A DNA stretch of 5,792 nt from the NCBI GenBank assembly GCA_002479245.1, contig DLMG01000427.1, positions 1-5,792 on the forward strand. The letters run 5' to 3'. This document shows positions 1-4,745 of this stretch, piece after piece. The notes under the pieces are model-generated. The model did not search any database and had not been told where the DNA came from. It worked only from the letters and a program-made list of their open reading frames with translations. Position 1 is the stretch's first letter. Each line of letters begins with the position of its first letter. The stretch is from Verrucomicrobia subdivision 3 bacterium UBA7542 (GTDB taxonomy: Bacteria > Verrucomicrobiota > Verrucomicrobiia > Limisphaerales > UBA11358). The position numbers were made by a program, and so were the translations under genes.

Positions 1-1727
1 AATTGCGGATTGTCAGGTTCAAGCGTCACGGCCTGGGAAAGCTGGTTGGTGGCCTGGTCCAATTTGCCTTGCTTCCAATAAGCCTTCCCCAAACCGTTGT
101 GCGCCGCTGGAAAATCCGGGTTGTTGTCGAGAGTGGTAATAAAACAGGCGGCGGCTTCCTGCGGCCGGTCGAAATCCAGTAAAACCTTGCCGAAATTATA
201 GTGCATCGTTGTGTCAAACGGCGCGAGCCGGGCCGCGGCGCTCAGGTGACTGAGCGCTTCCTCGGATTTGCCTTTCTTCAACAAAACCATGCCGAGAAAA
301 AATTGTCCGGGTGGATAGTTTGGCTTAATCCGCACCGCGTTGGTGCAAAGAGTCAAAGCTTCATCCTCCTGGCCAATGGCATCCAACGCCTGGCCGAGAC
401 AGGCGCAGGCGATGTAATTATCCCTTGTCACCGCGAGCGCGTGGCGGAAAAGCGTGATGCTGCTGCGCCAGTATTTTATTTGAATTGACGTTATGGCGAG
501 ACAACCCACCAGCGCGGCTGTTCCAAGCAGCGCCGCGATTTTTTGTTTGTGCGGAGTCGAAATCAAAATGTCATTCACACTCCAAACGACAAGGATAAAA
601 AGCCCGATGCTTGGAACATAAGTAAAACGGTCGGCCATGGATTGCGACCCCACCTGGACAATGCCGATGGCCGGCACCAGCGTTCCCAAAAACCAAAACC
701 AGCCGGCCAACAAATAAGGCCGGCGGCGCGCTATAAAAATAAACGCGCCCGAACACATTGCCAGCAACAGCGCCGCGACAATGGCCAGAGCGACAAGCCC
801 CTGGCTCGGAAATGGATAAATGACGGCCAAATCCACCGGCCAAAAAATTTTGGAAATGTAACGCACATACGCCCAAAGCACGTTCGCCAGCCGAAGCGAA
901 AATGTGTCGGCTGAAACCGCGCCGCCCACCTTTTGAGTAAAAAAGGCGACGCCGCTTCCTGCCGCCGCCAAAGTGAAGAACGGAATTTTTTCTAAAATTA
1001 ACCGTGCCATATTTTGAACGCTGACCTCTGAACGCTGAACGCTGAACCGCTCCAACGGCCAGAAATCCAGCAGCAACAAAACGAATGGCAATGTCACCAC
1101 CATCGGCTTGGACATCAAACCGCACGCGAAGAATAACAGCGCGAGGAAGTAGTAAAGTGACGGGTGGCGAGTGACGGGTGACGAAGCAGAGTCCGTTCGT
1201 GTCACTTGACACGTGCCACTGGTCACGCACCGCACGTAGCGCGCGTACGCCAGCAACGTCAGCATCCAGAAAAATGCGCTCAACACATCCTTGCGCTCGC
1301 AGGCCCAAGCGACCGACTCGACGTGCAGCGGATGCCAGGCAAACAACGCCGCCACGAAAGCGCTGCGCCACAAGGCGCCGGTCAGTTCATTCAACAGCAG
1401 GAACAGCAGCAAAGTATTGGTGAGGTGAAAGAGCAGATTCGTCAAATGATGGCCGCCGGGGTTCAAGCCATACAGTTGGCAGTCCACCATGTGCGAGATC
1501 CACGTCAACGGAATCCAATAACCGGCGTTAATGTGTTCGAAACTCCACAGGATGTTCGGCCAACTCAACCCTGAATTGACGTGCGGATTTCCCGTGATGT
1601 AGCCGTCGTCATCGAAATTGGTGAAGTTGTGGCGGGTAATCGGCCAATATACGACCAATGTCACAAGGGCGAGCATGAGACAGATAACCGCAAAAAGCTG
1701 GTTCCTTGTTGGTCTGGCTGTGGACAT
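1..1727 (-). CDS. TMTC-like multi-pass membrane protein with TPRs, copy A (3' end outside window)
   Basis: I read one uninterrupted frame of 575 codons from the ATG at 1727-1725 to the low-coordinate edge, where it is still open, so the C-terminus is missing. The N-terminal part is strongly hydrophobic with many predicted membrane helices. The first loop has the acidic motif NFDDDGYI (about 37-44), followed by IPLTWISHMVDCQLYGLNPG (72-91), HPLHVESVAWACERKD (132-147), KPMVVTLPFVLLLLDFWPL (207-225) and QVGSQSMADRFTYVPS (358-373). These fit the TMTC/DUF1736 type of GT-C-fold membrane proteins, whose eukaryotic members are O-mannosyltransferases. Four 34-residue TPR units follow (about 437-573). 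It is closely similar to the upstream copy B throughout, including long near-identical DNA blocks, so it is a tandem duplicate, 28 bp behind it. Residues about 166-191 and 228-242 are made of heptanucleotide repeats. I see no Shine-Dalgarno sequence. A glycosyltransferase activity is inferred; substrate unknown. Confidence 0.9.
   Translation of the reverse strand, partial: MSTARPTRNQLFAVICLMLALVTLVVYWPITRHNFTNFDDDGYITGNPHVNSGLSWPNILWSFEHINAGYWIPLTWISHMVDCQLYGLNPGGHHLTNLLFHLTNTLLLFLLLNELTGALWRSAFVAALFAWHPLHVESVAWACERKDVLSAFFWMLTLLAYARYVRCVTSGTCQVTRTDSASSPVTRHPSLYYFLALLFFACGLMSKPMVVTLPFVLLLLDFWPLERFSVQRSEVSVQNMARLILEKIPFFTLAAAGSGVAFFTQKVGGAVSADTFSLRLANVLWAYVRYISKIFWPVDLAVIYPFPSQGLVALAIVAALLLAMCSGAFIFIARRRPYLLAGWFWFLGTLVPAIGIVQVGSQSMADRFTYVPSIGLFILVVWSVNDILISTPHKQKIAALLGTAALVGCLAITSIQIKYWRSSITLFRHALAVTRDNYIACACLGQALDAIGQEDEALTLCTNAVRIKPNYPPGQFFLGMVLLKKGKSEEALSHLSAAARLAPFDTTMHYNFGKVLLDFDRPQEAAACFITTLDNNPDFPAAHNGLGKAYWKQGKLDQATNQLSQAVTLEPDNPQ
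1015..1049. repeat. Heptanucleotide array, TGAACGC type, five units, inside copy A
   Basis: On the plus strand the units are TGAACGC, TGACCTC, TGAACGC, TGAACGC and TGAACCG, without gaps. The array encodes the hydrophilic residues just after the FWPLERFS motif of copy A (roughly 228-238), in the loop before the next membrane segment. The array is 35 bp long, so gain or loss of a single unit would shift the frame. The same loop of copy B carries a heptamer array of unrelated sequence. Confidence 0.85.
1157..1228. repeat. Inverted heptamer element (4 + 16-nt centre + 4) inside copy A
   Basis: The left arm, 1157-1184, is GTGACGG, GTGGCGA, GTGACGG, GTGACGA. The centre, 1185-1200, is 16 nt and ends in GTTCGT. 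The right arm, 1201-1228, is GTCACTT, GACACGT, GCCACTG, GTCACGC. Folded back, the pentamers pair in register: 1157-1161 with 1222-1226, 1164-1168 (GTGGC) with 1215-1219 (GCCAC), 1171-1175 with 1208-1212 (one mismatch) and 1178-1182 with 1201-1205, with 2-nt mismatched gaps between. It encodes about residues 166-191 of copy A, a loop between two membrane helices, and keeps the frame. The same layout is found in copy B at 3297-3398. Confidence 0.85.
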
Positions 1728-1755
1728 GATTAACAGGTGAGCAGTCTTTTAAAAA

Positions 1756-3888
1756 TCAATGCGTTTCCCGAAAAGGATGTCCCGCCTGATACAGGTTCAG
1801 CAATTCCCCGTCTTGGGCGGCGATTTTCTTCTGCCCGGCGGTTTGGGCAAGTTTGCCGGCTATTTGCGCGGTGGCAATGGCGTCTGGGAACCGGCCGGTT
1901 TCCGCATAGGCGGCGGAGAGCGTGGTGAGAAAAGCCGCCTGCCGATTTTGGGTCAGTTCACAGGCGCGTTTGGCCAGTTGAACGGCTTCCGTGCCGGAGC
2001 GGAGTCCGGAGTCGGGAGCGGTGGAGAGAATCCATGCAAGTTCGTTGAGCGCGTCAGCAAAGTCCGGCTTGAGACGCAACGCCTCGCGGTAATGAAAAAT
2101 GGTTTCCTTTGATTTGTGTTGTTGGGACAAAGCCTGCGCCAGGTGGTAATGCGCCTCCGCGAACTCCGGCCTTTCAACGAGAGCGGCGGTGAAATGACCC
2201 GTGGCTTCATCCGGTTTGTTGTGCAGCACCAAAAACAGGCCAAGATTGTATTGAATCTCGGAATTGTGAGGGGCCAGCCGCCCGGCAGCGTCAAGATGTG
2301 CCAGAGCTTCGTCCCGCCTGTCGTTTTGCAACAAAGCCATGCCGAAATTATATTGTGTCACCGGGCTGTTCGGCGAAATTTTCACCGCTTCAGCACAAAG
2401 CATCATGGCCTCCTTTTTCAGGCCCAAATCACTGAGGGTTTCGCCCAGGCAGGTGTAGGCGACGAAATTATCGGTTGTCACTTCAATGGCATGTCGGAAG
2501 AGTTTTATGCTGTTCTGCCAGTAACTCAGTTGAATTTCAGTGCCCACCAAACAACCCGCCAGCGCCACGCCCCCGGCCAACGTCGTAATTCGCCGCCAGT
2601 GGGGACGCCAGTTCAAAAAATCGTTTAAGCCCCACACCACCAGAATGAACAGGCCGACGCTGGGAATATACATGTAACGGTCGGCCATGGATTGCGAGCC
2701 GACCTGCACCAGGCCGATGGTGGGGATGAGCGTTCCCAAAAACCAGAACCAGCCAACGAGCAAATACGGATTTTGGCGCGCGCGCCAGATGGACAACCCC
2801 GACCACAGGGCCAGCAATAATGCCGCGCCAATCGCCAAACCGGCCGGCCAATGATACGGATGCGGATAAAAAATTGAGAGATCAGCCGGCCAAAATGTTT
2901 TGGAGATGTAACGCTCGTAGGCCCACAAAGCGTTTGCTACACGGGAAGAAAAGGGCAATTCAGCCGACGACCAAAGCGCCCGGCCCGAAGTTTGCACAAG
3001 ATATGTCACAACGCTGGCTGCCACTGTGAGCGCGAAGAAAGGCAGTTTCTCACAAATCAGCCCGAAGGCTGATTTGGTTGAGCCCCGAAGGCATTCGGGG
3101 TGCAGTTGAGGGTCGAGGGCCTGCTCGCGATTTATCGGAGTTGAGAGTTTTTCAGAACTGGAAACTTGGAACTGGAAACTGGAGAAACGGTTCAGCGGCC
3201 AGAAATCAATCAGCAACAGCACAAACGGCAGCGTCACCACCATCGGCTTGGACATCAGTCCGCAGGCAAAGAAAAAAAGCGCGAGGCAGTAATAAGGTGA
3301 CACGTGACATGTGACACGTGACAAGAAGGAAGCGGTTCGTGTCACTCGCCACTTGCCTGCCGTGCCGAAGCGTGGCGAAGGCTGGTCACTTGTCACATAT
3401 CGTGTGTAGGCCATCAATGTCAACATCCAGAAGAACGCGCTCAACACATCCTTGCGTTCAGCCGCCCACGCCACTGATTCGACGTGCAAGGGATGCCAGG
3501 CGAACAAGGCCGCCACGAAAGCGCTCCGCCACAAGGCTCCGGTGATTTGCCTCAACCAAAGGAACAGCAGCAAAGTGTTGGCGGCGTGAAAAAGCAGATT
3601 GGTCGAGTGATGGCCGCCGGGATTCAAACCATACAACTGGCAATCCAGCATGTGCGAAAGCCACGTCAACGGATGCCAGTTGGCGGCGGCTCCGGTTTGG
3701 AAAGCCCAGATCACCCCGGCCCAGGTCAGCCCGGCCTGAACGTGGGAATTGTTGGTAATGTAATCGTCGTCATCGAAGTTGACAAAATCGTGATGAGTAA
3801 TCGGCCAGTAGAGCGCGGTTGTAACCAGGGCAAGCGCCAGGCAGATGAGGGCGGTGAGCTGGTTTTTTGTCAGTTTGGCCGTGAGCAT
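1756..3888 (-). CDS. TMTC-like multi-pass membrane protein with C-terminal TPRs, copy B (complete, 710 aa)
   Basis: This is a complete frame from the ATG at 3888-3886 to TGA at 1758-1756. In order: first membrane helix (about 10-30); acidic loop motif NFDDDDYI (37-44); HPLTWLSHMLDCQLYGLNPG (72-91); HPLHVESVAWAAERKD (132-147); KPMVVTLPFVLLLIDFWPL (214-232); a DUF1736-like stretch (about 278-340); QVGSQSMADRYMYIPS (395-410); last helix about 436-455. It then has four regular TPRs (about 474-610) and a degenerate TPR-like tail (611-690) with LNELAWILSTAPDSGLRSG. The layout matches TMTC-type GT-C membrane proteins, in which the acidic pair in the first loop is considered catalytic. Protein glycosylation is therefore a reasonable inference, but donor and acceptor are unknown; automatic labels such as 'O-GlcNAc transferase' would rest only on the TPRs. 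Residues 166-198 and about 235-277 are repeat-derived insertions, the second about 27 residues longer than in copy A. It lies 18 bp behind the PHP gene and 28 bp before copy A. No clear Shine-Dalgarno precedes it. Confidence 0.95.
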   Translation of the reverse strand: MLTAKLTKNQLTALICLALALVTTALYWPITHHDFVNFDDDDYITNNSHVQAGLTWAGVIWAFQTGAAANWHPLTWLSHMLDCQLYGLNPGGHHSTNLLFHAANTLLLFLWLRQITGALWRSAFVAALFAWHPLHVESVAWAAERKDVLSAFFWMLTLMAYTRYVTSDQPSPRFGTAGKWRVTRTASFLSRVTCHVSPYYCLALFFFACGLMSKPMVVTLPFVLLLIDFWPLNRFSSFQFQVSSSEKLSTPINREQALDPQLHPECLRGSTKSAFGLICEKLPFFALTVAASVVTYLVQTSGRALWSSAELPFSSRVANALWAYERYISKTFWPADLSIFYPHPYHWPAGLAIGAALLLALWSGLSIWRARQNPYLLVGWFWFLGTLIPTIGLVQVGSQSMADRYMYIPSVGLFILVVWGLNDFLNWRPHWRRITTLAGGVALAGCLVGTEIQLSYWQNSIKLFRHAIEVTTDNFVAYTCLGETLSDLGLKKEAMMLCAEAVKISPNSPVTQYNFGMALLQNDRRDEALAHLDAAGRLAPHNSEIQYNLGLFLVLHNKPDEATGHFTAALVERPEFAEAHYHLAQALSQQHKSKETIFHYREALRLKPDFADALNELAWILSTAPDSGLRSGTEAVQLAKRACELTQNRQAAFLTTLSAAYAETGRFPDAIATAQIAGKLAQTAGQKKIAAQDGELLNLYQAGHPFRETH
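3053..3076 (-). repeat. Perfect 10-bp hairpin with UUCG loop inside copy B
   Basis: The arms 3053-3062 (CAAATCAGCC) and 3067-3076 (GGCTGATTTG) are exactly complementary, and the loop 3063-3066 reads TTCG on the coding strand. The mRNA therefore has a C(UUCG)G tetraloop, known for high stability. It encodes KSAFGLIC (about 272-279) at the end of the second inserted loop of copy B. No T-tract follows, so it is not a typical terminator. Copy A has no counterpart. Confidence 0.85.
3083..3100. repeat. Perfect 7-bp hairpin inside copy B
   Basis: The arms 3083-3089 (CCCCGAA) and 3094-3100 (TTCGGGG) are exactly complementary around a 4-nt loop. It is 6 bp from the 10-bp hairpin at 3053-3076, and both contain a CCGAAGGC core. 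Together they look like a two-stem palindromic element inserted in frame; this stretch encodes LHPECLRGS. It is absent from copy A. Confidence 0.75.
3105..3183. repeat. Heptamer-rich insertion in copy B (GTTGAGG and AACTGGA types)
   Basis: Four tandem units occupy 3156-3183: AACTGGA, AACTTGG, AACTGGA, AACTGGA. Shorter heptamer-like pairs lie nearby: GTTGAGG GTCGAGG at 3105-3118 and GTTGAGA GTTTTTC at 3140-3153, the latter weak. The region encodes a polar loop (about residues 236-262) after FWPLNRFS. The array sits at the same protein position as the TGAACGC array of copy A, but its unit sequence is different. Confidence 0.75.
3297..3398. repeat. Inverted heptamer element with a 30-bp insertion, inside copy B
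   Basis: The left arm, 3297-3324, is GTGACAC, GTGACAT, GTGACAC, GTGACAA. The 16-nt centre, 3325-3340, ends in GTTCGT as in copy A. The right arm is GTCACTC, GCCACTT (3341-3354), a 30-bp block (3355-3384), then GTCACTT, GTCACAT (3385-3398). Without the 30-bp block it has exactly the 4 + 16 nt + 4 layout of the copy A element. It encodes about residues 164-198, between membrane helices. The 30-bp block is a multiple of three and adds ten residues without breaking the frame. Confidence 0.85.
3361..3380. repeat. Tandem 10-mer pair within the 30-bp insertion
   Basis: CGTGCCGAAG (3361-3370) is followed directly by CGTGGCGAAG (3371-3380); the two differ at one base. The pair makes up most of the 30-bp block that splits the right arm of the inverted heptamer element of copy B. 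Confidence 0.7.
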
Positions 3889-4710: not shown

Positions 4711-4745
4711 GTTGAGTGTTGAGAGTTGAGCGTTGAGTGTCGAAT
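4711..4745. repeat. Heptanucleotide array, GTTGAGN type, directly before the phosphatase start
   Basis: Five units in plus-strand order: GTTGAGT, GTTGAGA, GTTGAGC, GTTGAGT and GTCGAAT. In the mRNA this covers positions about -4 to -38 relative to the phosphatase ATG, so the array replaces the usual ribosome-binding region; the transcript there is C/U/A-rich and probably poorly structured. The phosphatase frame stays open through the array (it would read STLNAQLSTLNA), but with no start codon there. Confidence 0.85.

Follow-up and report, generated by a model that had tools for sequence, protein, structure and literature searches.

On balance, we read the heptamer-built inserts in two paralogous genes of this window as inherited copies of a dispersed DNA repeat. 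The window is the whole 5,792-nucleotide stretch of DNA analysed here, from the genome of Verrucomicrobia subdivision 3 bacterium UBA7542. The repeat has two arms of four heptamers each, is carried in frame inside genes, and has likely spread and had its arms rewritten one by one at the level of DNA, not kept as a fold of the mRNA. The four-unit rule and the inverted pairing hold here also for motifs without G-tracts, and copies lie in frame in housekeeping genes. Two questions thereby become testable: which mechanism produces arms of four heptamers, and by what means a conserved protein accommodates an insert of 20 to 35 foreign residues. In such genomes, the variable loops of many predicted proteins may consist of repeat DNA instead of reflecting protein evolution. 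Among the papers listed by a literature search on heptamer arrays, in-frame palindromes and REP elements, no description was seen of paired four-heptamer arms in frame or of a motif change at one site.

Two copies in paralogous genes

Direct reading places the same inverted heptamer element in both paralogues (Table 1), in agreement with the preliminary description of this DNA. As described there, the two copies occupy a shared loop, and each has a centre ending GTTCGT and four inverted units, those of copy B forming a split arm. From the last GTGAC to the first GTCAC there are 18 nt in both copies, or 14 nt without the two flanking NN. Copy A also contains GACAC (GTGTC on the sense strand), a further variant unit without a counterpart in the other arm. 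Gene B was matched in all 49 same-genus genomes. Rfam, run over the window at gathering scores, gave no match.

Loop 1 of this gene family holds six GTGAC copies in the same genome (A, B, L064, L065, L075 and L078). Because the six paralogues share the element with similar centres, A and B are inherited copies rather than independent ones, and independent insertion into the two genes was rejected.

Table 1. Heptamer features of the window and the genes that hold them; pentamer positions give the first base.
Feature	Positions	Strand	Evidence
Gene A, partial, membrane/TPR protein, holds copy A	3..1727	-	ORF list; Pfam TPR families
Second-loop array, gene A, sense-strand GTTCAGC	1015..1047		TRF and loop 2 reading
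Copy A, left arm: four heptamers GTGACNN, second unit GTGGC (GTGAC 1157, GTGGC 1164, GTGAC 1171, GTGAC 1178)	1157..1184		Direct reading; TRF period 7
Copy A, centre	1185..1198		Direct reading
Copy A, right arm: four inverted heptamers NNGTCAC, with GACAC and GCCAC (GTCAC 1201, GACAC 1208, GCCAC 1215, GTCAC 1222)	1199..1226		Direct reading
Gene B, paralogue, holds copy B	1756..3888	-	ORF list; TPR families
Second-loop array, gene B, sense-strand GTTTCCA	3156..3183		TRF and loop 2 reading
Copy B, left arm: four heptamers GTGACNN (GTGAC 3297, 3304, 3311, 3318)	3297..3324		Direct reading; TRF period 7
Copy B, centre	3325..3338		Direct reading
Copy B, inverted heptamers 1-2 (GTCAC 3341, GCCAC 3348)	3339..3352		Direct reading
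Block splitting the right arm of copy B (32 nt in place of the expected 2); similar blocks elsewhere in genome	3353..3384		
Copy B, inverted heptamers 3-4 (GTCAC 3385, 3392, beyond ~30 extra bases)	3385..3396		Direct reading

A dispersed family carried in frame

The window copies belong to a large family. Allowing at most one mismatch, the pattern GTGACNNGTGACNNGTGAC matched 53 + 45 times in the 4.4 Mb of the genome, against 2 + 1 times for the reversed pattern (98 versus 3); exact matches numbered 22 + 24, against 1 + 0. GTGAC arrays are thus not a product of chance. A script catalogued 20 two-armed copies in the loci scanned by then, with the stretch of copy A lying outside them, and the 4+4 layout reported for the window proved general: 14 of the 20 have it, the remainder being three 4+3, one 4+2, one 3+3 and one 4+5. 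In several of the shorter right arms, including that of copy B, a dispersed block of about 30-33 extra nt interrupts the units. Among one-armed GTGAC copies, inspected by eye, four units are the usual number, with five in L074 and an ambiguous number in L076. The inner edge of the arms is sharp: a G follows the fourth unit in 0.91 of arms (24 elements, own genome and genus) and in 0.95 (54 elements, other phyla), whereas the outer flanks show a weak bias only.

Two side observations concern the arms themselves. The splitting block, of the CAGCCTTCGC..AAGCTTCGGC.. type, looks nested in the heptamer element: it interrupts GTGAC arms in copy B and at L005, L019, L032, L035, L064 and L078. At L070 (G000:C299:25000-27400), two four-unit GTGAC arms stand about 90 nt apart in the same orientation and are not inverted.

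Many copies lie within conserved genes. Copies occur in frame in QueG, LarC, GluQRS-like, inositol-monophosphatase-family (IMPase), LuxC-family, U32-peptidase and prepilin-like genes and in paralogues of the window genes; one-armed copies occur in MutL, GcvP, AddB-like and HypF-like genes. NCBIfam curated models matched QueG and LarC above cut-off, as well as MutL and GcvP among the hosts of one-armed copies, while the matches to GluQRS, AddB, HypF and LuxC fell below it. Pfam gave above-cut-off matches to the inositol monophosphatase family, LuxC, peptidase U32, class I tRNA synthetase E/Q and HypF domains. Three copies sit just ahead of the hydrophobic start of prepilin-like proteins, a name given by eye; L006, so named, had no Pfam match. 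The reading frame stays open through many of the conserved genes that hold copies. Judged from these open frames, the inserts are presumably translated, and the host proteins are predicted to stay functional despite them.

An intact four-unit GTGAC arm contains TGA in every frame and is therefore passable in none. In a hand count (four units per arm, split arms read past the block), the stop-phase unit was altered to GTGGC, GTGTC or GTGCC in 17 of 17 in-gene copies, eight of which come from the window-gene paralogue family and are not independent. In the same 17 copies, 47 of 51 units outside the stop phase were intact; automatic totals, which include stray units, were 0/19 and 43/52 intact. 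The stop-phase unit was the second in seven copies and the third in ten, and never the first or fourth, where two changes would be required. Variant pentamers that resemble compensation (GTGGC and GTGTC in sense left arms) mostly reflect this avoidance of stop codons. Removal of the insert from RNA is disfavoured, since a spliced insert would need no alteration of its stop-phase unit.

The family extends well beyond this genome. The three-unit GTGAC pattern occurs in 27 of 49 genus genomes, and a 2+2 inverted pattern in 14 of 49 (the present one included) and in 1 of 48 others of the order; the control for the 2+2 pattern had no match in these genomes. When 84,980 species were searched, a 3+2 pattern turned up in at least 116 stretches, and the titles of the matches listed include Acidobacteria, Chloroflexi, Nitrospirae, Bacteroidetes, Omnitrophota, Planctomycetota and others. 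The preliminary description had likened the inserts to Rickettsia elements placed in frame in genes, and a dispersed family with many in-frame copies, here and in relatives, bears this out. Like Rickettsia palindromic elements, these are dispersed palindromes, in frame in unrelated genes, with several families per genome; the Rickettsia elements are ~150 bp long with family-specific sequence, and the excerpts of those papers do not mention fixed-number heptamer arrays (PMC10969869, PMC2694212).

Different heptamers at the same loops

In five genes, the motif at one loop differs among same-genus orthologues, often with four units. Loops were read by regular expression, yielding 25 distinct sequences for loop 1 and 30 for loop 2; for IMPase, QueG, LuxC and LarC, 30 loci each gave 26, 28, 10 and 14. 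At loop 1, the closest orthologue of gene B (G046, 85% identical) carries an arm of four GTCGAGG, which faces an inverted arm from the same family across a centre. Other relatives have GTCCAAA-type arrays there, and at five loci (L202, L214, L215, L222 and L224) the loop is short, with 45 residues between the anchors used. Loop 2 contains GTTGCAG/CTTCAAC pairs, AATTTCA, GTGTCGA and others. In LarC, the GTGAC pair of the own genome corresponds to a single arm of four GTCGAGG in G046, with nearly identical flanks. Of 26 IMPase-family loops read, 11 are short (36 residues) and lack an array; the remaining 15 vary in what they contain, non-heptamer palindromes included. One such palindrome, of the GGCGAGACTCCGTCGAG type, was seen in the IMPase loops L282, L284, L285 and L288 (G025, G001, G004 and G018). 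Some orthologous loops are short or empty, a point that the preliminary description had suggested checking.

At the QueG loop, the own genome, G023, G026 and G034 have GTGAC arms, whereas the arms of G046, G031 and G025 are of GTCGAG; others hold a single arm of the CATCTGC, AATCCGA, GCGGAAA, CTCCATC or CACTCCG type. On a QueG tree built with the loop excluded, the motif label changes 21 times over 29 labelled rows. The topology has little resolution, with 17 of 27 inner branches open, and labels were assigned by eye; L311 and L320 were read apart from the other rows, and the count has no label for L320. GTGAC and GTCGAG are interleaved within one six-genome clade. Twelve comparisons were made between QueG centres. 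The centre of the GTGAC-armed G026 aligned with those of the GTCGAG-armed G046 and G025 better than any of 1000 shuffles, and with that of G031, also GTCGAG-armed, at a level reached by 1 in 1000. The own-genome centre aligns closely with that of G026 by eye and weakly with those of G046 and G025 (45 and 43 of 1000 shuffles). No homology was seen between the own-genome centre and G031 (263/1000), or in any comparison involving G023 or G034 (87 to 732/1000).

Shared centres with differing arms, together with chimeric arms, suggest that at least one gene has had its arms replaced around a retained centre; independent reinsertion into tolerant loops could account for most sites. The four-heptamer arm would be the unit of copying. 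An existing array could then serve as a landing site, to be overwritten by whichever heptamer family is active in that lineage, and insertions with an open frame would survive where the peptide is tolerated at that loop. Because the elements show no end duplication and no sharp outer edge, insertion itself is neither dated nor defined. A more specific version is put forward only tentatively: a cassette of four heptamers plus one G may be the DNA copying unit, with each lineage overwriting old arms around a conserved centre with its current heptamer, in the frames of housekeeping genes. The 4+4 layout in distant phyla would make such a process widespread.

Slippage, transposition and folding as possible alternatives

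The preference for four units is not confined to GTGAC. Across 49 genomes, a three-unit GTCGAGN pattern gave 124 matches against 4 for its reversed control. Counted by hand over the complete list, the 70 arrays divide into 45 of four exact units and 24 of three; one has twelve, and none has 5-11. For GTCCAAN there were 122 matches against 39, the latter possibly belonging to another heptamer family, and the complete list of 63 arrays, also counted by hand, comprised 34 of four units, 23 of three and six longer. The heptamer repeats of Xanthomonas (GGGAATC) and Nostoc (GGGGA(C/T)T) also clearly prefer four units, and in two genomes their convergent inverted pairs number 70 and 75; within the heptamer, positions 1-4 and 6 are conserved and the others variable (Rehm et al. 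2015, PMC4692102, in excerpt). According to the same excerpt, however, those repeats have one G-rich motif, are 89-93% intergenic and are explained by G-quadruplexes, whereas here there are many motifs, in-frame copies and motif change at an orthologous site. GGG is present in the variants GTCGAGG and GTGACGG, which by their letters have G-tracts that could form a quadruplex; such tracts are absent from GTCCAAA, GTCGAGA and AACATCC arrays. Since GTCCAAA lacks a G-tract, a quadruplex cannot be the general reason for the four-unit preference.

Could local accidents suffice, with slippage making the heptamer arrays and a hairpin template switch the inverted arm, both visible in tolerant loops? 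Heptanucleotides are quoted as the commonest long simple repeats in most surveyed bacterial genomes, with a polymerase footprint as one proposal (quoted in an excerpt of PMC4679880); a slippage origin of heptamers is likewise quoted there and in the excerpt of PMC4692102. Period 7 leads our pooled sample of tandem arrays, taken from stretches of six genomes (20 arrays; periods 6 and 8 have 8 and 4), and among sampled hairpins with periodic arms, 12 have period 7, 4 have period 6 and 6 have period 8. Elements from other phyla have arms mirrored in both variable bases, as slippage with template switching would have it. Yet one motif recurs at tens of unrelated loci per genome, which local slippage would not yield, array length stops at four in 69 of 70 GTCGAGN arrays, and chimeric arms exist. 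We therefore regard slippage as unlikely. The own-genome part of the sample (L227-L246) has equal numbers of period 6 and period 7 (seven each), and period 6 is rare in the five relatives. The TAACTGA repeats of Beggiatoaceae are similar in being heptamer direct repeats, mostly of two to six copies, scattered over distant phyla; as far as the excerpt goes, they differ in lying mostly between genes, upstream of start codons, with one inverted case in 170 sets (PMC4679880).

Inverted arms of iterated sites, dispersal and lineage-specific abundance would also suit a non-autonomous, MITE- or REP-like transposon whose transposase binds the heptamers at both ends, with one motif per transposase. Of 49 genomes, 44 have Y1 transposases, whose count shows a weak correlation with that of GTGAC matches (rho 0.27, p 0.06). 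However, G016 has 16 GTGAC matches and no Y1 hit, in a genome that is 73% complete. Twenty Y1 loci (8 of 12 own-genome matches and 12 from relatives) had no period-7 array within 400 nt in a scan that detects near-perfect arrays and is blind to GTGACNN, and three-unit GTGAC arrays, sought separately, were also absent. Mobilization by a RAYT was rejected on this ground, and the Y1 loci and counts examined yielded no candidate copying enzyme. Five-base direct repeats at the ends were found in 0 of 24 and 0 of 54 elements, and direct repeats of 3-6 nt did not exceed shuffles in either set, leaving target-duplicating transposition without support. One-armed and chimeric copies also fit a transposon poorly, and we hold this explanation to be rather improbable. 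REP and REPIN elements resemble the present ones as short, many-copy palindromes, often of two opposite units and sometimes in genes; in the excerpts seen, they carry a GTAG or CGTC tag and are linked to a RAYT (PMC3733652, PMC3116915). Here the Y1 loci lack arrays and the tag is not enriched: in the 8 nt that flank the arms on the outside, 5 of 24 and 7 of 54 elements have either 4-mer, against 0.15 at random places.

The preliminary description proposed a fold maintained in DNA or RNA; a hairpin that selection keeps in the mRNA is, in our view, quite improbable. The arms do match: in 29 two-armed elements from five sites, the mean identity of the left arm to the reverse complement of the right is 0.70, against 0.57 in shuffles over all elements and 0.62 within sites, with 0 of 2000 reaching 0.70 in each. 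The sense strand of copy B also folds well as RNA (-43.5 kcal/mol, z -3.6; antisense -41.6, z -2.2). Copy A, however, folds better as the complement (-39.4, z -4.2) than in the sense direction (-26.4, z -1.8); DNA folding of the sense strands gave z -1.1 for A and -2.7 for B. Arms that are not complementary occur in the IMPases of G046 (GTCGAGA versus GTCAC) and G031 (GTCCAAA versus CATCCTC), in the QueG of G019 and at loop 2.

Base-by-base pairing in GTGAC 4+4 elements points the same way. Near-duplicates were dropped beforehand (1 of 15 own-genome, 1 of 17 genus and 22 of 94 other-phyla elements). Copy A, a near-duplicate of L065, was out of the own set and counted via L197 in the genus set, in which a few own-genome loci are repeated. 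Pentamer pairing did not rise above arm shuffles in any set (995, 703 and 284 of 1000 shuffles reached it in own, genus and other-phyla elements), so the idea of a fold maintained by compensating pentamer changes finds no support. Doubly variant unit pairs were complementary in 0 of 2, 1 of 2 and 3 of 6 cases, the single genus case being copy A itself. The GTGGC/GCCAC match that had been read there as compensatory is real, but it is the sole such case in the own and genus sets, and the paralogue L065 has GCCAC opposite GTGAC; the argument for compensation is weak and was rejected. In the 14 own-genome elements, the first variable base is paired at 0.77 against 0.49 in shuffles (1/1000), whereas the second is paired at 0.05 against 0.25, every shuffle being equal or higher. 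In the genus set neither variable base departs from shuffles, and in 72 elements from other phyla both pair above them (0/1000), that is, as mirrored arms. The pentamer test and the strand folding together disfavour mRNA structure as the main constraint. With the second variable base unpaired, own-genome 4+4 hairpins have a mismatch about every 7 bases.

Selection for a useful loop peptide, with the heptamers as its by-product, is very improbable: frames are open in the in-gene copies examined, but a period of seven does not fit codons, two different frames preserve the motif, loops at one site encode unrelated peptides between species, and copies outside genes exist.

The window contains further small repeats. 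A single arm of four GTTGAGN heptamers lies at 4711-4738, just upstream of a PHP-domain gene and outside the annotated frames. Loop 2 of gene B holds, in frame, two short perfect hairpins, at 3054-3075 (AAATCAG..CTGATTT) and 3083-3100 (CCCCGAA..TTCGGGG), and the second of these was seen again nested in the CTCAACT arrays of L075 and L076.
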